From Candidatus Electrothrix aestuarii (GTDB taxonomy: Bacteria > Desulfobacterota > Desulfobulbia > Desulfobulbales > Desulfobulbaceae): DNA of 64,000 nt. Positions 19,022 through 60,579 of this stretch are shown here, piece by piece. The DNA lies in contig CP159373.1 in NCBI GenBank assembly GCA_032595685.2, forward strand, positions 1,261,001 through 1,325,000, read 5' to 3'. Positions within the stretch are counted from its first letter, which is position 1. Each line of letters opens with the position of its first letter. The notes beneath the pieces were generated by a model. The model saw only the letters and a program-made list of their open reading frames with translations. It made no database searches and was not told the DNA's origin. The position numbers and the translations under genes are program-made.

Positions 19022-19276
19022 TTATCTATATACTTCCCGGCGATGTGCTATGGTGACCACCAGAATAATGAGTTCATTATCCTGAATTTCATAAATGACG
19101 CGGTACGTTCCGATTCGGATGCGCCATGCCGGACGTCCTGTCAGCTTCTTACAGCCGGACGGTCTGGGATTGTCGGCCAAGGCATATATTGCCGAAGCAA
19201 TGCGGTTGCGCGTTTGACTCTCCAGCTTGGCAAGCTGCTTCTGCGCTGAACGAAGGATAGTGACCGAGTAGGTCAC
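19022..19276 (-). CDS. RelE/ParE-type toxin
   Basis: 84 residues with the RelE fold pattern: MTYSVTILRSAQKQLAKLES, helix AIYALADNP, PSGCKKLTGRPAWRIRIGTY, then RVIYEIQDNELIILVVTIAHRREVYR. The Arg-rich RIRIGTYRVIYEI strand and terminal HRREVYR fit ribosome-dependent mRNA interferases of the RelE/YoeB superfamily. The start codon overlaps the end of the antitoxin gene by 4 bp, giving the usual antitoxin-first operon with coupled translation. Confidence 0.9.
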   Translation of the reverse strand: MTYSVTILRSAQKQLAKLESQTRNRIASAIYALADNPRPSGCKKLTGRPAWRIRIGTYRVIYEIQDNELIILVVTIAHRREVYR

Positions 19277-19479
19277 GCCCGGTTCTCCGGCTCAATTTCG
19301 TGCATTGCCTGGGCAAACGGAACAGCTTCCTGCGGACCTGCCTTAGCGGCATCGTATTGTCGGATGTCGTCCAGTTCCTCCAGTGCTTCAAGAACCTTTT
19401 CCCATTCGGCTGCGGAAATCAGTACAGCCGTTCGCTTCCGGTCGGCATTAACAACATATTGCGGATGAATTGACAGCAT
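19273..19479 (-). CDS. Phd/YefM-type antitoxin
   Basis: 68 residues; N-terminal Phd/YefM DNA-binding pattern (YVVNADRKRTAVLISAAEWEKVLEALEELDD) and an acidic C-terminal tail that would wrap the toxin. Preceded by AGAGG at about 8 bp. Probably autoregulates the pair. A solitary hairpin repeat (R2) lies about 200 bp upstream. Confidence 0.85.
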   Translation of the reverse strand: MLSIHPQYVVNADRKRTAVLISAAEWEKVLEALEELDDIRQYDAAKAGPQEAVPFAQAMHEIEPENRA

Positions 19480-19619
19480 TGCGGTACCTCTTTTGGGTCA
19501 TTGTATCCAGAGACAAGGAGAGTAACGTTATTACAGAATGTTATCACCTTGTCTATGCAGAAGCAAATGAAAAGCCCCCTCATCTCTTTCAGTCCGCCTT
19601 CTTTGCGCGGTACAAACAG

Positions 19620-19655
19620 AAAAGGCCGTCTGCAAGAAAAGCAGGCGGCCTTTTT
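19620..19655 (-). terminator. Intrinsic terminator behind the Rpn-type gene
   Basis: Stem AAAAGGCCGTCTGC / GCAGGCGGCCTTTTT with a short A-rich loop, between the Rpn-type gene (stop at 19714) and the antitoxin start. It would work on either strand. Confidence 0.65.
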
Positions 19656-19684
19656 GTGCTCTGTTATCAGGCAAAGATCGGCAG

Positions 19685-19704
19685 AATACCCTCTTCATAG
19701 GGTA
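19685..19704. repeat. Solitary CRISPR-repeat-like hairpin R2
   Basis: AATACCCTCTTCATAGGGTA, a 20-bp exact match to the reverse complement of the CRISPR repeat core. It forms TACCCT-cttcat-AGGGTA. It lacks the GGGCGACC hairpin found at the other three copies. It sits between the Rpn-type gene and the toxin-antitoxin operon. Confidence 0.8.
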
Positions 19705-19713
19705 TAACGTACC

Positions 19714-20718
19714 TTACTCGGCAAAGACATCCTCAAGGCTGACAGCGGTGAGAATGCGCTCAGACCATATTTCAAGCATCCCACCGGATGCCTCTTTCAG
19801 CATCTGCTCTGCCCATTCGGGAAGCTCTCCGAAACGTTTTCTCAGCTGCCGTGAAAGGAGCTGGAGTTCTCCCTGCACAACGCCCTGCTGCACGCCCTGC
19901 TGAAGACCCCGTTGCACTCCCTGCTCAAGCCCCTGATCGTAATATTTCTTCAGAAAAGATTGCATGATATCGCCTCCATGAACAGAATCTTCCAGAACTG
20001 CTCCAAGTGTTTCTTCGTCCAGTTTCCCTGTGCCCTCGGTGAGGTAATAGAGCAGAGTGAATATGATTTCGCGCCCGTTGTCATTGTCCAGCATCTCACG
20101 GGCCTGCGCCAGTATTTCCGGCAGCCGCACTGACAAATCATCCCGGAAGACGTGCTTGAGTGTCAGCAGCACTGTCCGGGCAGATATCCCACCCCGGACA
20201 TCCTGATCATCCAAGCGGGAGAAGTCCTGAAGTACCGGTGAAAACTCGGGCAGCCGCGCAAGCAAGGCTGGTTCCTGTACTGTGAACAGGGAATGGAAGT
20301 TCACTGGATGCTGCCAGGGCCGTGCGCCGTGATAGATAATCATGGGGTACACCGGCGGCAGTTTTGTCGCCTTTGGGTGCTCCGCGCAGTACTGCTCCCA
20401 GATGCGCACCATATAACGCAGAACCTGAAACACGGTCATGGGATCGATGTAGCTCTTATGCTCAAGGAGCAGATAGAGCAGGAGCTTTTCCGTGTCACCG
20501 CCCTGCACGGGCGTGTACTCCACCGCATAAAGCAGGTCCGATGCCGAGGGATGCAGCTCCGGGTCAACAAAGCTGTCCGGGATACGCTCCAGTGTTTCCA
20601 GGTTAATGTGCTCAAGCAGCTCTTCCGGGAGATTATGGCGAAAGTATCCTGCTGCCACCTCGGGCTGCCCAAAGGTCTGCCGGAACACATGATCATGCGG
20701 ATTGGTTACCGAACTCAT
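19714..20718 (-). CDS. Rpn-family recombination-promoting nuclease / PD-(D/E)XK transposase-like protein
   Basis: 334 residues of the Rpn (Transposase_31) family. The nuclease core is near residues 55-95: SDLLYAVEYTP (Asp) followed by LLLYLLLEHKSYIDP, which supplies the E-x-K motif, then MVRIWEQY. The middle is helical. The C-terminal part holds a short-period repeat QGLEQGVQRGLQQGVQQGVV (often a phase-variable or copy-number region) and a DUF4351-like end (LSRQLRKRFGELPEWAEQML). Rpn proteins cut DNA without sequence specificity and can promote recombination; some act in defence. Start ATG at 20716-20718. Confidence 0.9.
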   Translation of the reverse strand: MSSVTNPHDHVFRQTFGQPEVAAGYFRHNLPEELLEHINLETLERIPDSFVDPELHPSASDLLYAVEYTPVQGGDTEKLLLYLLLEHKSYIDPMTVFQVLRYMVRIWEQYCAEHPKATKLPPVYPMIIYHGARPWQHPVNFHSLFTVQEPALLARLPEFSPVLQDFSRLDDQDVRGGISARTVLLTLKHVFRDDLSVRLPEILAQAREMLDNDNGREIIFTLLYYLTEGTGKLDEETLGAVLEDSVHGGDIMQSFLKKYYDQGLEQGVQRGLQQGVQQGVVQGELQLLSRQLRKRFGELPEWAEQMLKEASGGMLEIWSERILTAVSLEDVFAE

Positions 20719-20787
20719 GCTGATAATATAACGATATTCGCCAAGATTGGCAACTACGGAGGGGAGGAGTTTGAAATGATCGCAGGC

Positions 20788-20844
20788 AAGGGCGACCGAC
20801 CGGTCGCCCTTGTGGGATGTAATACCCTCTTCTTATGGTAGGTA
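20788..20844. repeat. Solitary composite hairpin repeat R3 (CRISPR-repeat-like core)
   Basis: AAGGGCGACC-gacc-GGTCGCCCTT at 20788-20811, then TGTGGGATGTAATACCCTCT and a second hairpin with one mismatch (TTCTTATGGTAGGT). Located between the Uma2-type gene and the start of the Rpn-type gene. Confidence 0.8.
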
Positions 20845-20913
20845 CTCAAAGGCCACCTGTTTGTCAAAGCCATGTAGGGTGCATTTCATGCACCTTTTCG
20901 GTGCGGAGGCACC

Positions 20914-21342
20914 TCAGACCTGTTTTTCATCGCTTCCAAAGATGTCCGAGAAATTCACACTCACTCCCTCAGAGGATACCTGACCGGTCAATTCGACCTT
21001 CCGTGACCCAGGCCGAGATACGTACACAAGCTGCCCGTACGGTTCAATGGTCCAGACCGCTGCAATGCCCTCCTTCAGAAAGCGTTCTGCCTTTTGCATC
21101 AATTCATGTATGGACTGACTTGGTGAGGCGACCTCAATGACCAGTTGCGGCAGCACTGCGCATTTGGTGCTGTCTTCGTGAAAGTTGGGACGGATGGTCC
21201 CTCGTTTGTACACGGCAAGATCGGGAATAAGTCCTGCTCCGATATCCAGCGTCAGCTCAGGCCATGCCTCCCATTTTCCAGTCTTTTCCAGTTCAACTAT
21301 GATCCGTCTGCACAGATAGCTATGATTCAGTGAAGGGGTCAT
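20914..21342 (-). CDS. Uma2-family (DUF820) restriction-like endonuclease
   Basis: 142 residues of the PD-(D/E)XK DUF820/Uma2 family: LTLDIGAGLIPDLAVYKRGT carries the catalytic Asp, QLVIEVASPSQS the E-x-(S/A) motif, then KAERFLKEGIAAVWTIEPYG. It is about 40-50 residues shorter at the N-terminus than typical 180-200-residue members; the usual N-terminal EEY/ELI region is missing, so the start may be trimmed. The ATG has GGAGC upstream. These proteins are abundant in multicellular or large-genome bacteria and are thought to be nucleases of mobile elements. Confidence 0.87.
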   Translation of the reverse strand: MTPSLNHSYLCRRIIVELEKTGKWEAWPELTLDIGAGLIPDLAVYKRGTIRPNFHEDSTKCAVLPQLVIEVASPSQSIHELMQKAERFLKEGIAAVWTIEPYGQLVYVSRPGSRKVELTGQVSSEGVSVNFSDIFGSDEKQV

Positions 21343-21447
21343 TATATCTGCTCCATTATGTGCATCATTGGTGGTGTGGAGGCCACTGGTTACCCGGCTA
21401 AGGGATAAGGAGGGGACGTATGTTTACTTCAGTGGTAGGGAAAATGT

Positions 21448-21503
21448 AGGGGCGACCGACCGGTCGCCCTTGTGGGTGTAATACCCTCTTCATAGGGTAG
21501 GTA
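21448..21503. repeat. Solitary composite hairpin repeat R4 (CRISPR-repeat-like core)
   Basis: GGGGCGACC-gacc-GGTCGCCC hairpin, then TTGTGGGTG and a hairpin from 21479 to 21502 identical over 24 bp to the reverse complement of the CRISPR repeat (bases 9-32 of the 36-bp unit). Upstream of the Uma2-type gene start. The best-conserved of the four copies. Confidence 0.85.
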
Positions 21504-22715
21504 CTCCAACAACCTTGTATTAAGTAATAATAGCCTCACCGGATTATGCAAGAAAAAAACGACAGCAAACACATTTTAAGGGTGTTGAAAAGTACCCCAG
21601 CATAGAGCAATTTCAGTTGTCCGAGATGCCCAATAAGCATTTTTTTTCGTTTATCAGTGTTGCTGCAGCTTGATGTCGAACACTTTCCAGGCGGATTTTA
21701 GCCTTTTTCAAACCACTATGGGCAAAGACTCTGTTTTTTGGACAAGCCGACTGTCAGGAACAGCAAAAATGAGCAAACGGGTATTGTTGGGTGCTGCAAT
21801 AATTTACATTGTTTCTTTGATCTTTCTGTTATGCTGCCATTTTGAAGAGCGGCAGTTGCGGTGACTTTTTAGCAGGTTCTTTTTTGCGGGTTCCTGCCAT
21901 TTTTAACAATAACAAAGAGATGCTGCTGAACGTACATCGAACTGTGATTGCGGACTGACCGCGAACCCGAACGGTTTCAAGACCGGTTTGATGCTTTAAC
22001 AGATTGAAAGGCCGTTCACAGTTCTTGCGAATATCATGCGCCTCCCGTATCTGCTCGACATGGTAAGGTATTCGCTGGAAAAAGCCTCTGTCTAATGATA
22101 TGCTTCGACATTGAGGGCAGCTTCCTTTAAGAAGGCATTCACCTGTATTTGCTGCGCATTTATACTCGTGATGATCTTCGTCAACGCCCGCATACTCCAT
22201 AGGAACAGAACATTCGTTATGGCAGAAAACCGTGCCATTGGCGGTATCAACATTGTCCGGTGTAGATACTGTGGAACAGGGTGGGGTTGTCACGTATATA
22301 CCTTTTTTGTCGTGCAATGATCCGTCATTGTCATGATAGGCAGTATCGGCGGTGACCAGTTTCACCTCAACGCCCATAGCCTGCGCCACATCAACCAAAA
22401 GCGAAAGAAAATGGCTGTCATGGTGATTTGCCGGTGCAAGCAGGGAGATAATCGGAAAACTATGACCGGTTTCAGTATCAATCGCGGTTAACGTATGCAG
22501 ACGATAGCCGACTACGTATACAGATTTGTCACGCTTGTTGCGTCGTTTTCCACAGTCGCTATCGAGATCACTGTAAATACGTATGTTTTGGCCATTGATA
22601 TTTAGTGAAGCCAAGGGGATTTTACATTCATTGACCAGTTCGGTAGAGTCCACTCCGTGCAGAATATGGTCACCAAGCATCCCGGACTGCAAAAAATGGT
22701 GCAAAATATACACCG

Positions 22716-24579
22716 TAAGGGTGTTGAAAAGATCATCTCAATATTGCACAAAAACAGTTGCTTAAGCTAAAAAAGCCTGTATAATGAAAAAATTCAATAA
22801 TATTAAATCGCTTGCTCATTTCAAGTGTTATGCATAATAAAAATATCAAACGTATCGTACAAAAAGAGCTCAAGAAAAACTATCCCAATTGGAACCGTCT
22901 GAATCGAAAAACCAAAAAAGAAATCTCTCGAAAAGTTCTTGCGCAGGTCGCAGGCGAGTATGATTTTAAACAGGAGATTTCAGCCTCGTCGGATGAGCTG
23001 CTCGGCGTGGAGCAACAGGTTCAGACAAAAGGCATTATCAGCCTTGACCAGATGGCTGATATTGTCAATGAATCAAAAAATAACAATATCATGAAGCTTT
23101 GCGGAAAAAGTCGTTTCGCCAAATATATCAAAGATGAAGAACTCCGGTTTATCGACCAGCTGCTTGACAACGAAATTATCAATCGCCTGTTAGCTTATGA
23201 GGGCTATAGTCCTGCTATGCGGGACTTATTTCCTCACAACATGTTTCGTGCCGAACTGCTCAAGACGATCAAGTATCCAGAAATAAGCTACCGAAAATTC
23301 TGTGATAAAGAATACCTCGGCCTTGACCGCAAACAGAACCGCGCCTTTATCGGATTGTCATTGCGTGAAAAAGCAATTATTGACCATACTCAGCTCAGCA
23401 AATTCCGTCATTCCCTTACATTTGTCCAACAAATTAATATTACGGTGTATATTTTGCACCTTTTTTGCAGTCCGGGATGCTTGGTGACCATATTCTGCAC
23501 GGAGTGGACTCTACCGAACTGGCCAATGAATGTAAAATCCCCTTGGCTTCACTAAATATCAATGGCCAAAACATACGTATTTACAGTGATCTCGATAGCG
23601 ACTGTGGAAAACGACGCAACAAGCGTGACAAATCTATATACGTAGTCGGCTATCGTCTGCATACGTTAACCGCGATTGATGCTGAAACCGGTCATAGTTT
23701 TCCGATTATCTCCCTGCTTGCACCGGCAAATCACCATGACAGCCATTTTCTTTCGCTTTTGGTTGATGTGGCGCAGGCTATGGGCGTTGAGGTGAAACTG
23801 GTCACCGCCGATACTGCCTATCATGACAATGACGGATCATTGCACGACAAAACAGGTATATACGTGACAACCCCACCCTGTTCCACAGCATCTACACCGG
23901 ACAATGTTGATACCGCCAATGGCACGGTTTTCTGCCATAACGAATGTTCTGTTCCTATGGAGTATGCGGGCGTTGACGAAGATCATCACGAGTATAAATG
24001 CGCAGCAAATACAGGTGAATGCCTTCTTAAAGGAAGCTGCCCTCAATGTCGAAGCATATCATTAGACAGAGGCTTTTTCCAGCGAATACCTTACCATGTC
24101 GAGCAGATACGGGAGGCGCATGATATTCGCAAGAACTGTGAACGGCCTTTCAATCTGTTAAAGCATCAAACCGGTCTTGAAACCGTTCGGGTTCGCGGTC
24201 AGTCCGCAATCACAGTTCGATGTACGTTCAGCAGCATCTCTTTGTTATTGTTAAAAATGGCAGGAACCCGCAAAAAAGAACCTGCTAAAAAGTCACCGCA
24301 ACTGCCGCTCTTCAAAATGGCAGCATAACAGAAAGATCAAAGAAACAATGTAAATTATTGCAGCACCCAACAATACCCGTTTGCTCATTTTTGCTGTTCC
24401 TGACAGTCGGCTTGTCCAAAAACAGAGTCTTTGCCCATAGTGGTTTGAAAAAGGCTAAAATCCGCCTGGAAAGTGTTCGACATCAAGCTGCAGCAACACT
24501 GATAAACGAAAAAAAATGCTTATTGGGCATCTCGGACAACTGAAATTGCTCTATGCTGGGGTACTTTTCAACACCCTTA
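22716..24579 (+). mobile_element. Insertion sequence copy A, inserted into copy B in opposite orientation
   Basis: Ends TAAGGGTGTTG at 22716-22726 and CAACACCCTTA ending at 24579, flanked by CCG on each side, a 3-bp target duplication taken from the transposase gene of copy B. Length 1864 bp. Nearly identical to copy B, with only a few amino-acid differences, so the transposition was recent. Confidence 0.88.
22830..24328 (+). pseudogene. DDE transposase of IS copy A, one base missing
   Basis: N-terminal frame from ATG 22830 runs to the point matching copy B residue ~210 (INITVYILHLF) and then leaves the family sequence; the DDE core continues in the -1 frame from about 23465 to 24328. Compared with copy B, one A is missing before the T-run at 23459-23464 (CACC-TTTTTT instead of CACC-ATTTTTT). 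Adding it gives exactly 500 codons. Differences from copy B include Val/Ala before NECKIPL, Thr/Ala in IDxETGHSF and Lys/Thr in DKxGIYV. Confidence 0.87.
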
Positions 24580-25340
24580 CCGTAATATTAATTTGTTGAA
24601 CAAATGTAAGGGAATGACGGAATTTGCTGAGCTGAGTATGGTCAATAATTGCTTTTTCACGCAATGACAATCCGATAAAGGCGCGGTTCTGTTTGCGGTC
24701 AAGGCCGAGGTATTCTTTATCACAGAATTTTCGGTAGCTTATTTCTGGATACTTGATCGTCTTGAGCAGTTCGGCACGAAACATGTTGTGAGGAAATAAG
24801 TCCCGCATAGCAGGACTATAGCCCTCATAAGCTAACAGGCGATTGATAATTTCGTTGTCAAGCAGCTGGTCGATAAACCGGAGTTCTTCATCTTTGATAT
24901 ATTTGGCGAAACGACTTTTTCCGCAAAGCTTCATGATATTGTTATTTTTTGATTCATTGACAATATCAGCCATCTGGTCAAGGCTGATAATGCCTTTTGT
25001 CTGAACCTGTTGCTCCACGCCGAGCAGCTCATCCGACGAGGCTGAAATCTCCTGTTTAAAATCATACTCGCCTGCGACCTGCGCAAGAACTTTTCGAGAG
25101 ATTTCTTTTTTGGTTTTTCGATTCAGACGGTTCCAATTGGGATAGTTTTTCTTGAGCTCTTTTTGTACGATACGTTTGATATTTTTATTATGCATAACAC
25201 TTGAAATGAGCAAGCGATTTAATATTATTGAATTTTTTTATTATACAGGCTTTTTTAGCTTAAGCAACTGTTTTTGTGCAATATTGAGATTATCTTTTCA
25301 ACACCCTTATTTTGAACATTGCGCCCTTTACAAAGAGGAA

Positions 25341-25485
25341 GCCTGCATACTCCCCAAGAGCATGCCTGTATCCTCCTGCCGGGAATCACTGCGTCCCCCT
25401 CCTTTTTCACCCTATTTCCAGAGGATGAACAATAATTCCATTGACAAAGCCGGAAGAGCGCCGTAATTTGGCACAAGCAGTTCTG
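25341..25485. repeat. Partial copy of the 23-bp array plus its downstream leader
   Basis: Near-identical to 27359-27503: the last two 23-bp units, then CTGCCGGGAATCACTGCG and on to GCACAAGCAGTTCTG. The copy stops exactly where the group II intron begins. It shows that the array and leader once existed twice, or were duplicated in the course of the insertions. Confidence 0.8.
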
Positions 25486-27230
25486 ATCGGGTCAGAGGGA
25501 GCCGAAGCTCCCGTCTGCCCACAGAACCGTGCGTACGGGTCCGTACACGGCTCCTCATGTTATACTCTTATCCATCGATGAAGAGGTAACCAGTGCGAAT
25601 GCTTTTGATCTGACCGTATCTCTTGTCCCTTTTCCTGGATGAACCAAGCAACAGGGTATGCTTTTTCTAACGCAAAAGTATGAGATAAGGCCCATCGACC
25701 ATTATTCGAAAATGCCGCGTTTGCTGCACTCTTTCGGCTCACCCCTCTTTTCTTCAGCTTCTTGAACAGATGGCGACGCCTTTTCTGTTGATCCACCAGA
25801 CGCGCACGGAGTCTTCTCCGTATATGCGCTTCGATTTTGCTGAGTTGAGATGGATATTCCGTCATCCGATAATACCCGGCCCAACCGACATACCAACGGT
25901 TTATCCGCTTAATCGTTTTCTCCAGCGGCAGATACGTGCCTCGCGGTGTCAACTCTTTGACTTTCTGCATGGCCGTTTTCATCGATTTCGCTGAAATAGC
26001 CAGTGTTCCTTCAACGATAGTCATTCCGAGAAATTTCACCTCGCTGGAATGAGCGACCTTGCTCTTATCACGGTTGATCTTCAGCTTGAGTTTCTTTTCA
26101 ATAAATTTACTGATACTGCTCATGACACGCTCTGCCGCTTTGGGCGAGCGAACATAGATATTGCAATCATCAGCAAAGCGGCAAAACTCAAGCCCCCGCC
26201 GTTCAAGCTCCTTGTCCAGTTCATCAAGCACTACATTGCTCAACAGCGGACTCAGAGGACTTCCCTGGGGAGTGCCTTTCTCACTGAGCATCACATCACC
26301 GTCCTTCATTATCCCGCTCCGCAGAATCATGCCGATTAAACGGAGTACCCGTTTATCATCCACATGCCCTGAAAGAAGATAAATCAAACGATCATGGTTC
26401 ACTCGGTCGAAAAATTTCGACAAGTCGATGTCCACCACATACTCTTTCCCGCTCTTCACAATCCGCTGGCCGGATTCCACCGCCTGACGTTGACTACGTC
26501 CGGGACGAAAACCAAAGCTGTGATCAGAAAATCCCGGATCAAGTATGGGCTCCAAAAGCTGTTTGATCGTCGCATGAACAACCCTGTCTTTTACGCAGGG
26601 TACTCCAAGCAAACGAACGCCTGCACCTTTGCCCGGCTTGGGTATTTCAACCCGTCGCACCGGACTCGGTTTATACCTCCAGCCTGCAAGTTCTTTCGCA
26701 AGCTGTTCTATCTCTTCTTTCAGGCTGCTGCCGAATTCTTCGACCGTTACCCCGTCTACTCCCGGGGAGCCGCCGTTCTTCCTCACTGCCTTGAAACCTG
26801 CACGCAAAAATCGCACGTCGCAGAGTTTCTCAAAGAGACTTCTTTCATCAACAAACAGTTCCCTTTGTCTCATTTCACCTTCCATTTTGCGCTGTTATTT
26901 CATCACTCCGCACAGTCTCTGTTGTCATCGGAAGTATACGTATCCGCTTCAAAGACAGTTCCTACGGCTGAGCTCATAACAACATCTATTCTGAGAGTCC
27001 GGTTCTGATAACATGTTCCGCCCTTCGGCTCCGGCATTGCTGCCACTTTCTTGAATTATTTCAAGCAGTGCGAACCAAGAAAAAGCATTTCCCCCTCTAA
27101 CCCCCTGAGTAATCGTACGTAATTGACATAAAAAAAGCCTACCCCGAAATGTACGCTGGAGGTTCGCGCAGAACAGGCATCCGGGTATGCATCCAGATTG
27201 CCCGAAGCAATATCGGCGGCACCACTGTCT
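25486..27230 (-). mobile_element. Group II intron (5' end approximate)
   Basis: Minus strand. Domain V lies at 25522-25553 (starting GAGCCGTGTACGG and closing CGCACGGTTCTG) directly behind the maturase stop. A TTCG-capped domain VI hairpin follows (GGGAGC/GCTCCC). The 3' end is fixed by the break against the uninterrupted repeat at 27503. The 5' end is estimated from a GTGCC-type start near 27224-27230. The intron has sat down beside or inside the 23-bp array region. Confidence 0.75.
25560..26885 (-). CDS. Group II intron reverse transcriptase/maturase
   Basis: Up to 441 residues. RT motifs in order: GGSPGVDGVTVEEF, RRVEIPKPGKGAGVRLLGVP, FGFRPGRSQRQAV, YVVDIDLSKFFDRVNHDRL (first catalytic Asp), GTPQGSPLSPLLSNVVLDELD, and the active site FCRFADDCNIYV (FADD form of YADD). 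The maturase X domain follows (LPLEKTIKRINRWYVGWAGY, HIRRRLRARL). There is no HNH endonuclease domain, so it belongs to an En-minus lineage. The ATG at 26883-26885 lacks a good site; the ATG four codons on (26871-26873) is preceded by GGAAGG and is the likelier start. It assists splicing and retrohoming of the surrounding intron. Confidence 0.93.
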   Translation of the reverse strand: MEGEMRQRELFVDERSLFEKLCDVRFLRAGFKAVRKNGGSPGVDGVTVEEFGSSLKEEIEQLAKELAGWRYKPSPVRRVEIPKPGKGAGVRLLGVPCVKDRVVHATIKQLLEPILDPGFSDHSFGFRPGRSQRQAVESGQRIVKSGKEYVVDIDLSKFFDRVNHDRLIYLLSGHVDDKRVLRLIGMILRSGIMKDGDVMLSEKGTPQGSPLSPLLSNVVLDELDKELERRGLEFCRFADDCNIYVRSPKAAERVMSSISKFIEKKLKLKINRDKSKVAHSSEVKFLGMTIVEGTLAISAKSMKTAMQKVKELTPRGTYLPLEKTIKRINRWYVGWAGYYRMTEYPSQLSKIEAHIRRRLRARLVDQQKRRRHLFKKLKKRGVSRKSAANAAFSNNGRWALSHTFALEKAYPVAWFIQEKGQEIRSDQKHSHWLPLHRWIRV

Positions 27231-34789: not shown

Positions 34790-36745
34790 ATGACCACCTA
34801 TATAACCACCCCCATTTACTATGTAAACGCCATGCCCCACATCGGGCATGCCTACACCACCATCGTTGCCGATACCTATGCCCGTTTTCGTCGTCTCTGT
34901 GGCGATGAGGTTCGCTTCCAGACCGGTACGGATGAGCACGGCGAAAAAATCGTCCAGGCTGCTGAAAAGGAGGGTGTCAGTCCCCGAGACTACGTTGACC
35001 GTATTTCAGCTTCCTTTCATGACACCTGGCCAGACCTGGATATTGCCCCGGATAATTTCATCCGCACCACGGATGCCGATCATATCAAGCTGGTACAGGA
35101 TATCCTGCAAAAGGTCTACGATGAAGGAGATATCTATTTCTCCGAGTACTCAGGTCATTACTGCAAGGGCTGTGAACGTTTCCTCACGGAAAAAGAACTG
35201 GTGGACGGTAAGTGCCCGGACCATCTCACCGTACCCGAGGAGATCTCTGAGCAGAACTACTTCTTCCGCATGTCCAAGTATCAGGACTGGCTGATTGAGC
35301 ATGTTGAGAGCAATCCTGAATACATCACCCCGGAACGCTATCGCAACGAGGTGCTCTCCTTTCTCCGTGAGCCGCTGGAAGATCTCTGTATCTCACGGCC
35401 CTGTTCCCGCCTGACTTGGGGTATCCCTCTACCTTTTGATGAGAACTTTGTCACCTATGTCTGGTTTGATGCCCTGATCAATTACCTCACCGGGATCGGC
35501 TATCCAGACGGCTCTTGTTTTGATTACTGGGCTGCTGCCGAGCATGTGATTGCCAAGGATATCCTCAAGCCCCATGCCATTTATTGGCCCACGATGATCC
35601 GGGCAATGGGACTACCTCCGTATAGACGCCTGCATGTCCACGGTTACTGGAATGTGGATGAGACCAAGATGTCAAAATCCTTGGGCAATGTAATTCGTCC
35701 TGGCGAGCTGGTTGAGGAATACGGGGTGGACACTGTGCGCTACTTTTTGCTCCGGGAGATGAGTTTCGGGCGGGATTCTTCTTTTTCCACGGAAGCCTTG
35801 GAAGCTCGCCGTAATTCGGACCTGGCCAATGATGTAGGCAACCTGTTCTCACGCGCCCTGACCATGCTGGTCAAATATGCTAATTCGACTGTACCGGAGC
35901 TTGATAAGGAAACCGTGACCGAAGAAGATCGGGTCTTGGTGGATGCTTTGGAGAAGATGGTGGCTGATTACAGCGCAGCCATGAATAGCTTTGAGTTTCA
36001 TAAAGCCTTGCAGTCCATCTGGGAAGTGATCGGGATGTTGAACCGCTTCATCGTTACCAATGCACCCTGGGAGCTGGCCAAGGACTCTGATCAGGCCGGG
36101 CGGCTGAACACCGTCCTGTATTTCCTGGCAGATAGTCTACGCCTGCTGGCCGTGGTGCTCCGTCCAATTATGCCCACGGCTGCGAAAAAGATGGCAGCAG
36201 CTCTGGGGCTGGAGAAAGAGCTGGCTACAGCACAACTGGAAAATGAAGGGTGCTGGGGCAAGATGCAGGCCGGGACGACCCTGAATCAGGGCGAGGCCTT
36301 GTTTCCCCGCTTGGCGAAAAAGAAAAAGCCACAACAACCTCAGGCCCAACAACAGAGCAAGAAAGGCAAGGCAAAGAAAAAAGAGGCTGAGCCGGAAATC
36401 GACATGGAAGGACTGATAACCTTTGAGCAATTCGGTGAGGTTGAATTGCGGGTGGCGGAGATCATCACCGCAGAGAAGGTCAAAAAGGCGAACAAGCTGC
36501 TCAAACTCACGGTCAAGGCCCCGGAGGAGCGGACTTTGGTAGCTGGTATTGCCAAATTTTACGCTCCAGAGGAACTGGTCGGGAAAAAGGTGATCATTGT
36601 TGCCAACCTGAAACCGGCCAAGTTGATGGGGATTACCTCTCAGGGTATGGTATTGGCGGCCAAGGAAGTCGATGCGGACGGTAATGAGCACTTGGTGCTC
36701 TCCACCGTGGCAGGCGATATTGCACCGGGTTCTCGGGTGGCGTAG
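34790..36745 (+). CDS. metG: Methionine--tRNA ligase with C-terminal tRNA-binding domain
   Basis: 651 residues. Class I synthetase signatures: the HIGH box in MPHIGHAYTTIVAD (residues ~15-20) and KMSKS in NVDETKMSKSLGNVIRPG. A zinc-type insert has CKGCERFLTEKELVDGKCPDH. After the anticodon domain comes a Lys/Gln-rich linker (PQQPQAQQQSKKGKAKKKEA) and an EMAPII/Trbp111-like OB domain (FGEVELRVAEIITAEKV, KVIIVANLKPAKLMGITSQG). Charges tRNA-Met for initiation and elongation. No close RBS is seen; the ATG is preceded by GGAGCAGCTCG at about 20 bp. Confidence 0.95.
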   Translation: MTTYITTPIYYVNAMPHIGHAYTTIVADTYARFRRLCGDEVRFQTGTDEHGEKIVQAAEKEGVSPRDYVDRISASFHDTWPDLDIAPDNFIRTTDADHIKLVQDILQKVYDEGDIYFSEYSGHYCKGCERFLTEKELVDGKCPDHLTVPEEISEQNYFFRMSKYQDWLIEHVESNPEYITPERYRNEVLSFLREPLEDLCISRPCSRLTWGIPLPFDENFVTYVWFDALINYLTGIGYPDGSCFDYWAAAEHVIAKDILKPHAIYWPTMIRAMGLPPYRRLHVHGYWNVDETKMSKSLGNVIRPGELVEEYGVDTVRYFLLREMSFGRDSSFSTEALEARRNSDLANDVGNLFSRALTMLVKYANSTVPELDKETVTEEDRVLVDALEKMVADYSAAMNSFEFHKALQSIWEVIGMLNRFIVTNAPWELAKDSDQAGRLNTVLYFLADSLRLLAVVLRPIMPTAAKKMAAALGLEKELATAQLENEGCWGKMQAGTTLNQGEALFPRLAKKKKPQQPQAQQQSKKGKAKKKEAEPEIDMEGLITFEQFGEVELRVAEIITAEKVKKANKLLKLTVKAPEERTLVAGIAKFYAPEELVGKKVIIVANLKPAKLMGITSQGMVLAAKEVDADGNEHLVLSTVAGDIAPGSRVA

Positions 36746-36812
36746 CAGGAAGTGGTCGTTTCCTGCGCTGGGGCGTGGGAACAAGAAAAAGGTTCTTTAG
36801 AGAGACGTTGGG

Positions 36813-37913
36813 ATGATAACACAGCTTGAGATAAAGAACTTCAGAGGTTTCTCTGAATATAAGATTGATGATGTCGGGCAGGTTAATTTGCTGGTCGGCA
36901 CGAACAATTGCGGAAAGACTTCAATCTTAGAGGCTGTTCATCTGCTTAAATCCCGTGGAGATGCTTCTGCATTGTTTTTCCTTCTTTTTCGTAGAGGAGA
37001 ACGGATTATTCAAAACGAAGAAAAAACAAGCCGTAGCACAGAAGGAGATCTATGTCGTCTGTTTCATGGATTTCGGTTAACTCCAGAGTTAGATTTATCT
37101 ATAAATTCTATTGACCATGCTGTTGAAAGTTTATCAATTTCTATCAATGAACTCCAATCTGTTCAGCTTAACCAGTTTAAAGAATTAGCTGATTCTATAG
37201 GAGGCTATCAACTGGACCTCGAATGGAGATGGGGTCAGGATGGACATGAGAAACAGGCTTATCCCATCACTTATAGTGGAGGCTTATCTTATTATTTGAT
37301 GCGAAAGATGGTTCTCGCCAGACCTAGTACGAAGAAATGGGTTAATGTATTTGTACCAACTTCTTCTCTGTCACCAAAAGGTGTGGTTGCCTTATTTGAC
37401 AATGTAGTCCTCTCTCCTGATGAAGACTTGGTGCTGGAAGCAATAAAAATCATTGAACCTGACATTACTCGCCTTGCTTCGCTTGGCGGAATCGCTTCTT
37501 CTGACGATTATCCTCGCGGTGGTATCATCGTCAAAAGCAGCAAGTGGGAAGAGCGCATCCCCATCGGAAATTTCGGCGACGGCATCTGGCGACTGCTCGG
37601 CCTGATCCTCTCCCTTGTCGCAGCAAAAGACGGGACCTTACTCTTTGACGAAATCGACACCGGCCTGCACCACACGGTCATGTCAAAAATGTGGAAGCTG
37701 ATCTGCACCACAGCGAGAAAACTCAACGTCCAGGTCTTTGCCACCACTCACAGCAGCGATTGCTGGAAGACCTTAGCAGACAATGCGGTTGAAGAGGAAT
37801 TTGCTGACATGCCCATACGTATCCATCGGATAGATAAGAATAAAAGTAAACCAGAGACGTTTACTAATCGAGAAATGCACCTTGCCTTGGACCAGGAAAT
37901 AGAGGTTCGCTAG
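36813..37913 (+). CDS. AAA ATPase of the OLD/AAA_15-AAA_21 type
   Basis: 366 residues. ABC/SMC-like ATPase head: N-terminal ITQLEIKNFRGFSEYKIDDV, Walker A VGTNNCGKTS (residues 28-37), signature-like FGDGIWRLLGLILSLV, Walker B GTLLFDEIDTGLHH and the switch ATTHSSDC. Such ATPases pair with a TOPRIM protein in OLD-type nucleases, and here the next gene, 1 bp downstream, encodes a TOPRIM-like DUF3226 protein. The TOPRIM part is thus split off rather than fused. An antiphage role like that of PARIS or OLD systems is an inference from architecture. Confidence 0.85.
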   Translation: MITQLEIKNFRGFSEYKIDDVGQVNLLVGTNNCGKTSILEAVHLLKSRGDASALFFLLFRRGERIIQNEEKTSRSTEGDLCRLFHGFRLTPELDLSINSIDHAVESLSISINELQSVQLNQFKELADSIGGYQLDLEWRWGQDGHEKQAYPITYSGGLSYYLMRKMVLARPSTKKWVNVFVPTSSLSPKGVVALFDNVVLSPDEDLVLEAIKIIEPDITRLASLGGIASSDDYPRGGIIVKSSKWEERIPIGNFGDGIWRLLGLILSLVAAKDGTLLFDEIDTGLHHTVMSKMWKLICTTARKLNVQVFATTHSSDCWKTLADNAVEEEFADMPIRIHRIDKNKSKPETFTNREMHLALDQEIEVR

Positions 37914-37914
37914 G

Positions 37915-38559
37915 ATGGCTCGGCAACACGAAAAGGTACTTCTGGTTGAAGGAGTAGAAGACCAACGGGTTATTCCCGAGCTTGTTGAGGCGAACGGCAT
38001 ACAATGGGGTGACAGAGAAAAGGACTGGATTGTTCAAATTAAATCCATGAACGGCGTTGAAAACCTCCTGGATAAACAACGAATCAATGTCCAGCTGAAA
38101 AGTTCCGCATTGAAAATCCTGGGCATCATTCTTGATGCTGATGATGAACCCGCCGACCGCTGGCAAAGTATGCGCAACTGCCTTCTTGACCGATATCCAG
38201 ATATTCCAGAAGAATTGCCCGCAACCGGCCTGATTCATCCCGGCGAAATCACAGTTGGGGTATGGATGATGCCTGATAACCAAAAGCGCGGTATGTTGGA
38301 AACCTTTCTTGAATTTCTTCTCCCGGATAACAGCGAGGAATTGTGGAATCTAGCAAGCCAAACCTGCGAACAAGCTGCAGCAAACGGAGCAGCGTTTAAA
38401 AAGGCCCATACAGATAAAGCCCGAATCCATACTTGGCTGGCATGGCAAAATCCACCGGGAAGACAGCTTCATAACGCTATAACCGAACGCATTCTCTCTC
38501 CGACTTCACCACAGGCCGCAGTGTTCATGCAGTGGTTCAAAGACCTGTTTGAAGTATGA
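37915..38559 (+). CDS. DUF3226 (TOPRIM-like) partner of the AAA ATPase
   Basis: 214 residues. The N-terminal EKVLLVEGVEDQRVIPEL supplies the TOPRIM Glu, and LGIILDADDEPADRW the D-x-D motif; IHPGEITVGVWMMPDNQKRG and MLETFLEFLLP are DUF3226 blocks. The TOPRIM fold suggests metal-dependent nuclease or primase-like chemistry. The ATG starts 1 bp after the stop of the ATPase gene, so the two are made together. Confidence 0.85.
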   Translation: MARQHEKVLLVEGVEDQRVIPELVEANGIQWGDREKDWIVQIKSMNGVENLLDKQRINVQLKSSALKILGIILDADDEPADRWQSMRNCLLDRYPDIPEELPATGLIHPGEITVGVWMMPDNQKRGMLETFLEFLLPDNSEELWNLASQTCEQAAANGAAFKKAHTDKARIHTWLAWQNPPGRQLHNAITERILSPTSPQAAVFMQWFKDLFEV

Positions 38560-38573
38560 AGGATCTCTTCTCG

Positions 38574-39623
38574 TCAATGCAACTCAAAACGCACCGGCAC
38601 CTTCACCCACATTGACTGGGCCCTGCCCCCTACCGTACCCGGAGAGAACTTCCATCCCCGTACAGCCTTCAAAGCTGCCTTATCAAGGATACTATGCCCG
38701 CTGCTGGCAAAGAGCCGTAACTCTGCCACCCTGCCGTTGGGATCAACCTTGGCCTCGATGGTGACAACTCCTTCAAGCCCACGTCGTCTCGCCATGCGGG
38801 GATATTCCGGTGGCGGGTTGCTCTGATAAAGCGGTGCTGCTTCCCGGACCACACCTGTATTCTTCGCTGGTGTTGCTCGCTTTGTTATTTGATTTGTTGT
38901 TCGGACTGTCCTCCCGCTTGTTGTTCTACTTGGAGTTGATGCAAGCACCTGCCTCGTACGCACCTGCCTTGTGCTCACCGGCTGTCGATATGTACTCTGT
39001 GTTCTCTGGGTTCTCTGATATGTTTGCCGATACCTTGTCGGTGTTGCTGGATGTATCGTTGCACTGCGCACTATAGGCCGCTGCTGCGAAACGACAGGTT
39101 GAGAACGAACAGGCTGGGATGAGACTGAACGAGTCTGCACCGGTGTAGGAATACGTTGCGGCTCAGGCTTTGGTAACGGCTTGACGACTTTCAAGGGCTT
39201 AATCTCCTGCTGCGTAACCGGAGCGATCTTCGGCAGCACCGGGAGCTTGGTGGAGATCTTCTTTCCCGGCTGGAGCTTAACCGGACGAATCGCTTGATGC
39301 TGCACCTGCGCAAGCTTGGGCAGTGAAGGCACCTTTTGCACGATCTTCTTCAGCGGTTTGGGCTTGGGTACGATCGGTTTGATCGGTTTGATCGGCTGAT
39401 ACTCTGCGGCTGCAAGCTGGGGAAGAGATGGCACCTCCTGGACAATCTTTTTCATCGGCGGCGCAGGCGGTGGAAGCCTCGTCAGACTAACTGTAATCTT
39501 CTGCGGTAAAGGCTTCGGTCGTACAGTCGGCGGGGGCTGCTGCATTCGCCAGGAAAGCAAGGCCCCATGCAGACCAATGGTGAACAGGATTGCAGGGACC
39601 ATCCGCTGCATGGCTTCATTCAT
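38574..39623 (-). CDS. tonB: TonB energy transducer
   Basis: 349 residues. One N-terminal membrane helix (VPAILFTIGLHGALLSW), a very long Pro/Lys-rich periplasmic stretch with repeated units (PKPLKKIVQKVPSLPKLA and similar), then the C-terminal TonB domain (PPEYPRMARRRGLEGVVTIE, ARVDPNGRVAELRL-like VDPNGRVAELRLFASSGHSI). It links ExbB-ExbD proton energy to outer-membrane receptors. Its start overlaps the exbD stop by 4 bp; the order is exbB-exbD-tonB. Confidence 0.93.
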   Translation of the reverse strand: MNEAMQRMVPAILFTIGLHGALLSWRMQQPPPTVRPKPLPQKITVSLTRLPPPAPPMKKIVQEVPSLPQLAAAEYQPIKPIKPIVPKPKPLKKIVQKVPSLPKLAQVQHQAIRPVKLQPGKKISTKLPVLPKIAPVTQQEIKPLKVVKPLPKPEPQRIPTPVQTRSVSSQPVRSQPVVSQQRPIVRSATIHPATPTRYRQTYQRTQRTQSTYRQPVSTRQVRTRQVLASTPSRTTSGRTVRTTNQITKRATPAKNTGVVREAAPLYQSNPPPEYPRMARRRGLEGVVTIEAKVDPNGRVAELRLFASSGHSILDKAALKAVRGWKFSPGTVGGRAQSMWVKVPVRFELH

Positions 39624-41787: not shown

Positions 41788-41827
41788 TTAATCTGAACAG
41801 ATAGAAATTATTCTGATAACATACATT

Positions 41828-41856
41828 GCATGCAATGCTTGCAAAGCCTATAATAA
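41828..41856 (+). promoter_or_regulatory. Sigma-70 promoter with a palindromic operator candidate for fitAB
   Basis: TTGCAT at 41828-41833, 17-bp spacer, TATAAT at 41851-41856. The -35 box sits within the 12-bp perfect palindrome ATTGCATGCAAT (41827-41838), suited to repression by the ribbon-helix-helix antitoxin encoded 78 bp downstream. Confidence 0.65.
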
Positions 41857-41933
41857 ATACATACAAAGCTGTTCGCTTCAACCATCGGAATAGCCAGCAA
41901 AATTCATATAAACATAAACTTACGGTGTGTACC

Positions 41934-42182
41934 ATGCCAAGTCTTACCATCCGAAACCTTGACCCTGCTGTTAAACGAGGCCTGAGAATACAGGCTGCCC
42001 GCCATGCCTGCTCAATGGAAGAAGAAGCCAGAAGAATATTGCGGGCTGCTATACTGCAACCTGTTAGGGAAAAAGGCTTAGGTACTTTCATTCAGCAGAA
42101 ATTCCATAAGAACGGCGGAGTTGAAATAGATCCTGTCCGCGCTGCTCCCCGCTCCCCTGTCATACAGGATGATGAGGAATGA
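41934..42182 (+). CDS. FitA-type ribbon-helix-helix antitoxin
   Basis: 82 residues: the N-terminal RHH domain (MPSLTIRNLDPAVKRGLRIQ, AARHACSMEEEARRILRAAI) matches FitA/VapB-like Arc proteins, followed by a C-terminal arm that would bind the toxin. The frame is open further upstream, but the ATG at 41934 begins the domain directly. Stop and next ATG overlap (ATGA). Confidence 0.85.
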   Translation: MPSLTIRNLDPAVKRGLRIQAARHACSMEEEARRILRAAILQPVREKGLGTFIQQKFHKNGGVEIDPVRAAPRSPVIQDDEE

Positions 42183-42598
42183 TACTTCTTGATACCAACA
42201 TCCTCTCCGAGCCGATGCGTCCTTCGCCGAATGAGCAGGTCATCTCCTGGCTTGACGAACAAATCGTCACGGACCTCTTTATCTGCGCTGTCACCAAGGC
42301 GGAAATAGAACTCGGCATCGCCTTGTTACCGGAGGGCCGAAGAAAAAAGGCCTTGTTTTCCGCAGCTCAGGAGCTGTTCAGTAAATTTTCCGAACGCTGT
42401 TTGGCCTTCGGTGAAGCTGAGGCTTCCATCTATGCCGCAATTATTGCCGATACCCGTGCCAAGAGCGAAACAATGAGCGTTGAAGATGCTATGATCGCTG
42501 CGGTCGCCCTGTCCTATGACTTCACCCTGGCAACACGGAACATCAAAGACTTTAAGGGAATTGACGACATATCACTCATTAATCCCTTTGCAACCTAA
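42179..42598 (+). CDS. FitB/VapC-type PIN-domain toxin
   Basis: 139 residues. PIN-domain RNase with the acidic residues in MILLDTNILSEPM (Asp5), TKAEIELGIALLP (Glu), and MSVEDAMIAAVAL (Asp), plus the LATRNIKDF end. Acts as a ribonuclease that is inhibited by the overlapping antitoxin gene product. Most similar in layout to FitB. Confidence 0.9.
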   Translation: MILLDTNILSEPMRPSPNEQVISWLDEQIVTDLFICAVTKAEIELGIALLPEGRRKKALFSAAQELFSKFSERCLAFGEAEASIYAAIIADTRAKSETMSVEDAMIAAVALSYDFTLATRNIKDFKGIDDISLINPFAT

Positions 42599-58989: not shown

Positions 58990-60553
58990 GAATGGACACC
59001 TACCCTATGAAGAGGGTATTAAGACGCAAGACCTGTAACGAGTGGTGCCATGACTACCGGTCGTAACACCTACCCTATGAAGAGGGTATTAAGACTTTTA
59101 TTCATCCTTTCCTCCTGCTGTTTATTAAGTCGTAACACCTACCCTATGAAGAGGGTATTAAGACACAGTGGTGTGGCCGATGCCAATCCAGCCCATAATA
59201 GGTCGTAACACCTACCCTATGAAGAGGGTATTAAGACCGCAGGGGAATGACCAATTTGTCGGAAAGTGGCGTCGTAACACCTACCCTATGAAGAGGGTAT
59301 TAAGACGGGTTGGGAAGGTACACGTATACTTTCTCGCTCCAGTCGTAACACCTACCCTATGAAGAGGGTATTAAGACAATCTGAATCGAGTTAGCATGCT
59401 CATGTATGCGTCGTAACACCTACCCTATGAAGAGGGTATTAAGACCCACTGAACGACAGTTTTCCGTAGGGCGTTTGCGTCGTAACACCTACCCTATGAA
59501 GAGGGTATTAAGACCGTTTGGTTCAGCCTGTTCAATAGAAGTAAGTGGTCGTAACACCTACCCTATGAAGAGGGTATTAAGACATAACTATAATCATCAT
59601 AATAACGCCAATAATTGGTCGTAACACCTACCCTATGAAGAGGGTATTAAGACAATGTGCGTAATCCCCTTGCATCCATGTTTTGCGTCGTAACACCTAC
59701 CCTATGAAGAGGGTATTAAGACCTTTGCTGAACTGGACGACTAGACTGTTGGCAAAGTCGTAACACCTACCCTATGAAGAGGGTATTAAGACACAGGGTT
59801 AAGACGTTGCTAAACCCTATGATCAGTCGTAACACCTACCCTATGAAGAGGGTATTAAGACCTGCAACACCTGATATCAACGAGCCAATGATTATGTCGT
59901 AACACCTACCCTATGAAGAGGGTATTAAGACGGATTCTCTTCCTATACTTGTATAAGGGATAATTTTGTCGTAACACCTACCCTATGAAGAGGGTATTAA
60001 GACTATCAATCAGAACCTCATGAGCAGTATTAGTATCTGTCGTAACACCTACCCTATGAAGAGGGTATTAAGACTTTCTGTCAAAACTGCTGTGTCTAGA
60101 GCCTCTGTCGTAACACCTACCCTATGAAGAGGGTATTAAGACAGTGTTACCTTCTACACCATAGATGACCCCTCCTTGTCGTAACACCTACCCTATGAAG
60201 AGGGTATTAAGACAAGAGCCAAGGAACAAACTGCAACAGTAACCAGTCGTAACACCTACCCTATGAAGAGGGTATTAAGACATCATATTCGGAGTAGTAT
60301 TTCCCACCCTCTTGTCGTAACACCTACCCTATGAAGAGGGTATTAAGACGCCTTCTCGCCCTTGTTCCATGAGAATTTCCTTTCGTCGTAACACCTACCC
60401 TATGAAGAGGGTATTAAGACGTACATCCAAGAGCCATCATACTGCTCCAGTTGTCGTAACACCTACCCTATGAAGAGGGTATTAAGACTGGATTCTGTCG
60501 GGAAGTTTCAGATATCCGAGTAGTCGTAACACCTACCCTATGAAGAGGGTATT
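58990..60553 (+). CRISPR. CRISPR array, 23 repeats, no cas genes in the window
   Basis: 36-bp repeats beginning GTCGTAACACC and ending GTATTAAGAC, with the hairpin TACCCT-atgaag-AGGGTA. Repeats start at 58990, 59060, 59129, 59202, 59271, 59342, 59410 and so on to 60523; spacers are 32-37 bp. The first repeat is diverged in its first 7 bases and the last in its final 5. The left flank is AT-rich (leader-like) and a terminator follows on the right, so + transcription is likely. All 22 spacers look different from each other and from the window by eye. Confidence 0.97.
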
Positions 60554-60579
60554 TCTCTGTTTCACCCGTTGATAGGCAC

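Follow-up and report, generated by a model that had tools for sequence, protein, structure and literature searches.

A probable two-gene anti-phage unit of the split-OLD kind, an ATPase and a DUF3226 protein, behind metG in Candidatus Electrothrix aestuarii

A 64,000-nucleotide stretch of the 5.11-Mb, single-contig genome of the cable bacterium Candidatus Electrothrix aestuarii (contig CP159373.1, positions 1,261,001 to 1,325,000; hereafter the window) encodes, directly behind metG, an ATPase followed 1 bp after its stop codon by the ATG of a DUF3226 protein. The two genes probably constitute a split-OLD anti-phage unit that spreads by horizontal exchange, and are best read as a triggered effector that would combine the split gene layout of PARIS with a TOPRIM fold nearer to that of OLD. 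The pair is already catalogued as the PADLOC-DB 2.0 candidate PDC-M38, with both proteins matching its models end to end, adjacent and in the order A, B; no difference was found, PADLOC's own system rule not having been seen. The terms "DUF3226" and "PDC-M38" were absent from the literature searched, which lay outside supplements and most subscription journals, and no mechanism or phage test of the candidate was found. The first-pass annotation, made from the sequence alone, was fair in calling the DUF3226 version less well characterised, though it has a catalogue entry. The split OLD-type architecture that this annotation had proposed is supported by the predicted fold, the catalytic residues and the near-constant pairing of the two genes. 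For this widespread candidate the analysis supplies a predicted fold, likely assignments of its catalytic site and working logic, and a pair of natural alleles suited to a direct test. The site of exchange is the newer part of the present analysis.

Predicted fold and active site of the two proteins

The first protein is assigned to the Pfam families AAA_15 (3.4e-25, 89.9 bits) and AAA_21 (4.5e-18, 66.8 bits). Among PADLOC models it matches PDC-M38A (PDLC04611) at 7.5e-80, with residues 1-366 aligned to profile positions 1-383, and AbiLi (PDLC02336) end to end at 8.5e-55, while AriA reaches only 3e-26. Its structure model, with a predicted local distance difference test (pLDDT) score of 91.3, resembles the heads of SMC and Rad50 as well as PtuA (Z ~17-18), and a profile search matched chains of OLD, PtuA, GajA and AriA. 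In addition to the Walker motifs and switch histidine (Table 1), G255, G257 and the final residue, R366, are invariant in 75 aligned homologs, among which variability peaks around residues 101-180 (entropy of 3.2-3.4 bits vs 0.9 at residues 21-40). The earlier assignment of an ATPase from its Walker A and Walker B motifs is borne out by the sequence, which reads GTNNCGKTS at Walker A, LLFDEID at Walker B and ATTHS at the switch histidine, together with AAA_15 and AAA_21, and the list of open reading frames (ORFs) confirms the ends of both genes and the single base pair between them.

The second protein matches DUF3226 over residues 7-213 (Pfam, 2e-70) and PDC-M38B (PDLC04624) at 1.6e-70. A TOPRIM domain is barely visible in its sequence: the OLD-like_TOPRIM model scores 0.016, under its cut-off, and a profile of 83 DUF3226 sequences reaches AriB chains at E ~0.5. 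The predicted model (pLDDT 94.9) adopts a TOPRIM plus helical fold like the C-terminus of Class 2 OLD proteins, and Foldseek placed Class 2 OLD C-termini, retron Eco2 and AriB at the top of its matches. In VIA-align the closest structures were PH0156 of Pyrococcus (2p62; Z 12.5 over 191 residues, root-mean-square deviation (rmsd) 3.7) and the OLD C-terminus of Burkholderia pseudomallei (6nk8; Z 11.0 over 161 residues, rmsd 3.8), followed by retron Eco2 (Z 8.8), the OLD protein of Thermus scotoductus (TsOLD; Z 8.2) and AriB (Z 7.7). Because Argonaute-family chains, which are presumably unrelated, reach Z 8.0, only the top few of these matches stand clear; the fold lists are ranked by similarity and incomplete, and a family missing from them was not taken as excluded. 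The protein is TOPRIM-like as first proposed, weakly so by sequence and with support from the predicted fold.

The two-metal site of B. pseudomallei OLD comprises E400, E404, D455, D457, T506 and E508, with K562 nearby (PMC6755086). By position, the DUF3226 protein appears to hold the E...D/E, DxD, E, K set of TOPRIM two-metal nucleases of the OLD/M5 type, equivalence being assigned by order, spacing and fold, not by superposed coordinates (Table 1). The residue counts cover 83 of 105 DUF3226 ORF hits and 75 ATPases, with duplicate, truncated and broken copies removed beforehand, along with the divergent loci L027, L042 and L046.

Linkage, spread and exchange of the pair

A scan of 84,980 species genomes recovered 316 places that encode a DUF3226 relative, the best 80 of which form, together with the window, a linkage set of 81 loci. 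The ATPase gene, be it intact, damaged or interrupted by a contig end, lies directly upstream of the DUF3226 gene in 78 of them (74 from a first pass and four more in which it had been masked by an early start in the DUF3226 gene), and the pairing is therefore not due to chance. The remaining three comprise two loci cut by contig ends (L144, L155) and one truncated DUF3226 gene without an ATPase (L103). The intergenic gap is -4 to +5 bp in 65 of the 75 cases measured. One contig of a metagenome-assembled genome (MAG) carries two such pairs in tandem (L115, 7001-10636), and the genome of the window has a second, divergent pair at C1:~461.7-463.4 kb, with a shorter DUF3226 frame and a profile match that extends across stop codons.

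The loci are spread across many phyla, their record titles naming cyanobacteria, planctomycetes, cable bacteria, Bacteroidota and others, and their presence is patchy: DUF3226 was found in 13 of 395 genomes sampled from the phylum (own genome included; 12 over the cut-off), in 9 of 57 relatives and in 6 of 8 genomes of the genus (own genome included, one copy broken). Nine plasmid records also contain DUF3226. A 6.4-kb mobilisable ColE10 plasmid of Citrobacter has six annotated genes, namely rep, two mobilisation genes, one other and the pair; on Acinetobacter plasmids the pair adjoins BrnTA or BrnTA lies elsewhere on the plasmid; and on a Plesiomonas plasmid the pair is near phage tail genes. 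The ATPase gave just two partial tblastn matches in phage records, and a viral structure library returned no match at E<=0.001.

Evidence for exchange of the pair comes from comparison with G401, the sister genome of the window's own genome (G000); G395 to G401 denote genomes of the same genus and G403 one of another genus, and tonB, exbD, exbB, glyQ, radC and valS are names given by reading the sequences, without scans of single proteins. The window was divided into 128 pieces of 500 bases and compared with a 75-kb stretch of G401, to which 78 pieces align over >90% of their length, with a median identity of 98.0%. A further 27 pieces have no match, 15 of which (5.5-13 kb) adjoin an inversion and may fall beyond the G401 stretch compared. 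Among pieces aligned over at least half their length, just two regions fall below 91% identity: a CRISPR-like array, and the pair together with its left border, where the four pieces across 36501-38500 are 88, 71, 84 and 67% identical. Within the pair, the start of the ATPase gene (96%) and the bin 37701-37800 (97%) are well conserved, the middle of the gene (37001-37500) falls to 66-72% and the TOPRIM gene to 57-64% over most of its length. The synonymous divergence (dS) of 0.99 for the ATPase and 1.98 for DUF3226, against 0.11 for metG, 0.10 for tonB and 0.15 for glyQ, argues for replacement by foreign alleles and against rapid evolution at the locus.

The end of metG, over its last 146 alignment columns, seems to have travelled with the pair. 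Here G000 agrees with G401 at 124, with G400 at 130 and with G395 at 128 positions, while just upstream the agreement is 88/94, 67/94 and 78/94, respectively. At the right border, likeness to G395 stops just past the DUF3226 stop codon and gives way to other DNA towards radC.

The content of the metG site differs among the eight same-genus genomes compared. It holds the pair in G000, G401 and G395, an amylase-domain gene in G397 and two genes without a Pfam match in G396, and is empty in G400, with ~60 bp from the metG stop to that of tonB; in G399 it falls at a contig end. In G398 (Ca. Electrothrix aarhusensis) the site is occupied by a three-gene Lamassu/ABC-3C system (L189, 609-4209; LmuB 1.5e-101, LmuA 2.6e-38, ABC-3C middle component MC3 1.1e-16), bounded by metG on one side and a 91-bp second metG 3′ end (83.5% identical), then tonB, on the other. 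A search for direct repeats of the metG 3′ end was negative for the window, for G401 and G395, and for the metG loci of G397 and G400; the metG spacer of G400 has a 24-base inverted match to the metG 3′ end.

Behind valS, directly or after at least one gene, the pair is present in G397, G400, G398 and G403, while the 4 to 6 kb behind valS of G000, G401 and G395 contain no pair and the valS flank of G396 stops 138 bp past the gene. The order in G400 is valS, PDC-S69 (4.4e-111), the pair, with two stops in its DUF3226 gene, and a 38-bp copy of the valS 3′ end (94.7%). The 46-bp copy in G398 sits after valS but ahead of the pair and therefore belongs to a different insertion; no valS 3′-end repeat was found in G397, just a 22-base match in G403, and no copy of a synthetase 3′ end was found around the pair in G401, in G395 or in the window. 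PDC-S69, a second defence candidate (301 aa), is encoded before the ATPase gene in G400 (L029, 8053-8955) and before an ATPase fragment in G399 (L190, 2783-3688), at sites that differ, and has strong matches elsewhere in G000 and in G396. Two further arrangements were observed in these genomes: in G397 the intact DUF3226 gene is separated from a second DUF3226 3′-end fragment by a gene with a pyridoxal-phosphate (PLP) decarboxylase domain (L028, 10409-11935), a further case of 3′-end duplication, and in G399 a 166-aa protein, PIN-like by reading, and an AAA/DUF3696 protein are encoded just upstream of metG (L052, 2583-3709).

We read these junctions as suggesting that DNA has inserted repeatedly at synthetase 3′ ends while keeping the entered gene whole, a reading based, for the pair itself, on one repeat and the seemingly exchanged metG end. 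A hotspot at the metG and valS 3′ ends is put forward as a hypothesis, these genomes carrying many insertions. In its fullest and rather doubtful form, the metG and valS 3′ ends of cable bacteria would be exchange sites for small defence cassettes that bring their own synthetase 3′ end and rebuild the entered gene without an integrase; the pair, the Lamassu-type system and PDC-S69 would be alternative cargoes, and the sensor and nuclease of the pair would diversify there by whole-allele swaps. The valS repeat of G398, which does not flank the pair, makes this proposal less likely.

Function of the pair: known systems and competing explanations

Systems that combine an ATPase with a TOPRIM protein include OLD, Gabija, retrons, AbiL, MADS and PARIS (PMC12409363). 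In PARIS, which has been proposed as Class 4 of the OLD proteins (PMC10568477; PMC12796447), a hexamer of AriA holds AriB until a phage protein triggers its release, upon which AriB cuts tRNA-Lys via an M5-like two-metal site (PMC12409363). The present pair likewise has ATPase and TOPRIM in separate genes, AriB is among its structural matches, and its ATPase passes the PARIS thresholds of 32 bits for AAA_15 and 27 bits for AAA_21 (PMC9122126) with the 89.9 and 66.8 bits given above. The AriA match, however, is far below that to PDC-M38A, and the TOPRIM protein belongs to DUF3226, with no match at E<=1 to DUF4435 (PF14491), the family used in PARIS detection by Rousset et al. (PMC9122126); the first-pass distinction from PARIS at the TOPRIM family therefore stands. 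Class 2 OLD and GajA share the TOPRIM plus helical domain and the corresponding E, DxD, E and K positions, but OLD proteins of Classes 1-3 are single chains whereas a stop codon separates the two polypeptides here, no helicase gene lies directly downstream, and M127 replaces T506. The ATPase resembles AbiLi of the AbiL system (AbiLi-AbiLii) over its full length, and the second gene has no match to AbiLii or RloB at E<=1. In Septu the partner is the HNH nuclease PtuB rather than DUF3226, and the Lamassu/ABC-3C system of Ca. Electrothrix aarhusensis shares the site behind metG but consists of different genes.

By analogy with these systems, the ATPase and DUF3226 proteins may form one complex, in which an oligomeric ATPase, with its variable middle (~residues 60-240) as the sensor, would keep the TOPRIM nuclease in an inactive state. 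Its release or activation would follow from a change in nucleotide or a trigger made by the phage; the nuclease may then cut tRNA of the host, in the manner of AriB, or DNA, in that of OLD and GajA, and infection would be stopped, probably at the expense of cell growth.

A role in defence, as the first-pass annotation suggested, receives indirect support from the PADLOC models, carriage on plasmids, patchy presence, allele exchange and the Lamassu system at the same site, while the enrichment in defence islands that it proposed as a check was not found. Across 20 long contigs drawn from the 80 scan loci, up to three genes (120-900 aa) on each side of the pair, 118 in all, matched four PADLOC models at 1e-15 (~2 proteins), compared with seven models (~3-6 proteins) for 120 control genes at least ~19 kb away on the same contigs, the protein numbers being estimates from family tallies. 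Other observations also weigh against an anti-phage unit of the split-OLD kind. In the window the pair is flanked by ordinary genes (metG, tonB), and the metG-site cargo of G397 and G396 lies outside known defence. The DUF3226 protein has no tblastn match in 50,697 phage records, and none of 17 stretches of viral contigs that fit a pattern was confirmed. At the level of the protein, the Foldseek E-values are 4e-3 and worse, T506 is not conserved, and D76 is replaced by asparagine in 10 of 83 homologs. A candidate that fails the defence-island test can still occupy a site that exchanges defence cargo, and site-by-site comparison of close genomes may reveal defence genes to which island enrichment is blind. 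The literature search found little about phage defence in cable bacteria, and the main text of PMC11976967 contains none of the words CRISPR, defence or defense.

The absence of island enrichment would also suit a housekeeping or repair ATPase-nuclease of the RecF/SbcC kind fixed beside metG, with no part in defence, as would the similarity of the ATPase to RecF, Rad50 and SMC heads. Such a role is nevertheless very unlikely for a pair that was not found in 382 of 395 phylum genomes, is missing at the metG site of one same-genus genome, is carried on plasmids and has had its allele swapped whole. An improbable but more serious rival is a toxin-antitoxin pair, in which DUF3226 would be toxic alone and neutralised by the ATPase, made first, phage defence being secondary or absent. 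The gene order, the tight coupling and the location on plasmids beside BrnTA are all consistent with this proposal, and AAA-TOPRIM_OLD pairs have been validated as toxin-antitoxin systems (PMC10440598). It is countered most directly by plasmid pAHTJR2, in which the ATPase is split over three frames while the DUF3226 gene is open and keeps its catalytic residues, and more weakly by the MAG contigs L112 and L121, where a damaged ATPase also accompanies an open DUF3226 gene (in L121 the catalytic E12 is alanine), though these cases may reflect silence or errors of sequencing or assembly. Deletion of either PARIS gene, moreover, was reported to be non-toxic (PMC9122126). The reverse case of an intact ATPase with a damaged DUF3226 gene occurs in G400 and L125, and L090 has stops in both genes.

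A third alternative, for which a reasonable though lesser case can be made, overlaps with the preferred reading of a triggered anti-phage effector: the same defence unit would cut DNA under nucleotide control, as in Gabija and OLD, with the nuclease staying on the ATPase. The predicted TOPRIM fold is nearer to the DNA-cutting Class 2 OLD protein than to the tRNase AriB (Z 11.0 and 7.7), but the genes are split as in PARIS, and RNase M5 and AriB have the same catalytic geometry (PMC6755086; PMC12409363), such that the fold cannot tell DNA from RNA cleavage.

Feature coordinates and neighbouring genes

The features of the pair and its borders are collected in Table 1. The gene 5′ of the pair is metG, whose product has methionyl-tRNA synthetase domains in a Pfam scan, and the gene 3′ of DUF3226 is a convergent 349-aa ORF, TonB-like by reading, with exbD and exbB beyond it.

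Table 1. Position and conservation of features in and around the ATPase-DUF3226 pair (window coordinates; G000, G395 and G401 as defined in the text; Bp, B. pseudomallei)
Feature	Position	Strand	Evidence or conservation
metG 3′ end, seemingly exchanged with the pair	36601..36745	+	83-86% identity to G401; most other 100-base metG bins 96-100%
Spacer, metG stop to ATPase start	36746..36812	+	G395 letters nearly the same, G401 more different (by eye)
ABC/SMC-type ATPase gene, PADLOC PDC-M38A type, 366 aa	36813..37913	+	ORF call; PDC-M38A and AbiLi end to end; AAA_15; structure model
Walker A, residues 29-36	36897..36920	+	G29, N31, K35 invariant in 75/75 homologs
Walker B, residues 275-280	37635..37652	+	D279, E280 invariant in 75/75 homologs
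Switch histidine H313 (ATTHS)	37749..37751	+	invariant in 75/75 homologs
DUF3226 gene, TOPRIM nuclease-like, PADLOC PDC-M38B type, 214 aa	37915..38559	+	DUF3226 2e-70; PDC-M38B 1.6e-70; model; solved-fold matches
Putative TOPRIM glutamate E12 and D16 (= E400/E404 of Bp OLD)	37948..37962	+	E12 in 81/82; D or E at 16 in 79/82 (aligned homologs having a residue at the position)
Putative DxD motif D74/D76 (= D455/D457 of Bp OLD)	38134..38142	+	D74 83/83; position 76: D 71, N 10, E 2 of 83
E129 (= E508 of Bp OLD, metal B), by position	38299..38301	+	83/83
K168 (= K562 of Bp OLD), by position	38416..38418	+	83/83
Right border, DUF3226 stop to convergent tonB stop	38560..38576	.	G000 = G401 throughout

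The immediate neighbours of the loci were also collected as a set of 135 genes out of 180 listed, from which short, very long and duplicate entries had been dropped by hand; the set has no control, mixes in short contigs and was not counted as support. At 1e-15 it matches 41 PADLOC families, the 25 listed resembling about a dozen proteins, with HmaB, Type I, III and IIG restriction genes, DpdF and PDC-S69 as examples. A third conserved gene was rejected, as none of the 158 Pfam families found at 1e-5 occurs in more than four members. A functional tie to aminoacyl-tRNA synthetases was likewise rejected: adjacency to metG or valS was seen in cable-bacteria loci, and tRNA-synt_1 occurs in 2 of the 135 neighbours, by deduction the metG of the window and the valS of G397, in a set that leaves out metG of G395 and G401 and valS of G403 and of which 25 of the 158 families are listed, such that single class II synthetases would escape. 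We read the synthetase adjacency as an effect of the site.

Elsewhere in the window, a FitA-like antitoxin and PIN-domain toxin pair is encoded at 41826-42598, ~3.3 kb downstream of the ATPase-DUF3226 pair. The region 19022-26885, mostly without a match in the G401 DNA compared, contains a ParE-type toxin, a YhgA-like transposase, Uma2, repeated transposase-like ORFs and a group II intron reverse transcriptase. The CRISPR-like array at 58990-60576 consists of 23 copies of a ~36-bp repeat at ~70-bp spacing, the last copy being degenerate, and its pieces at 59001-60500 are 73-75% identical to G401.

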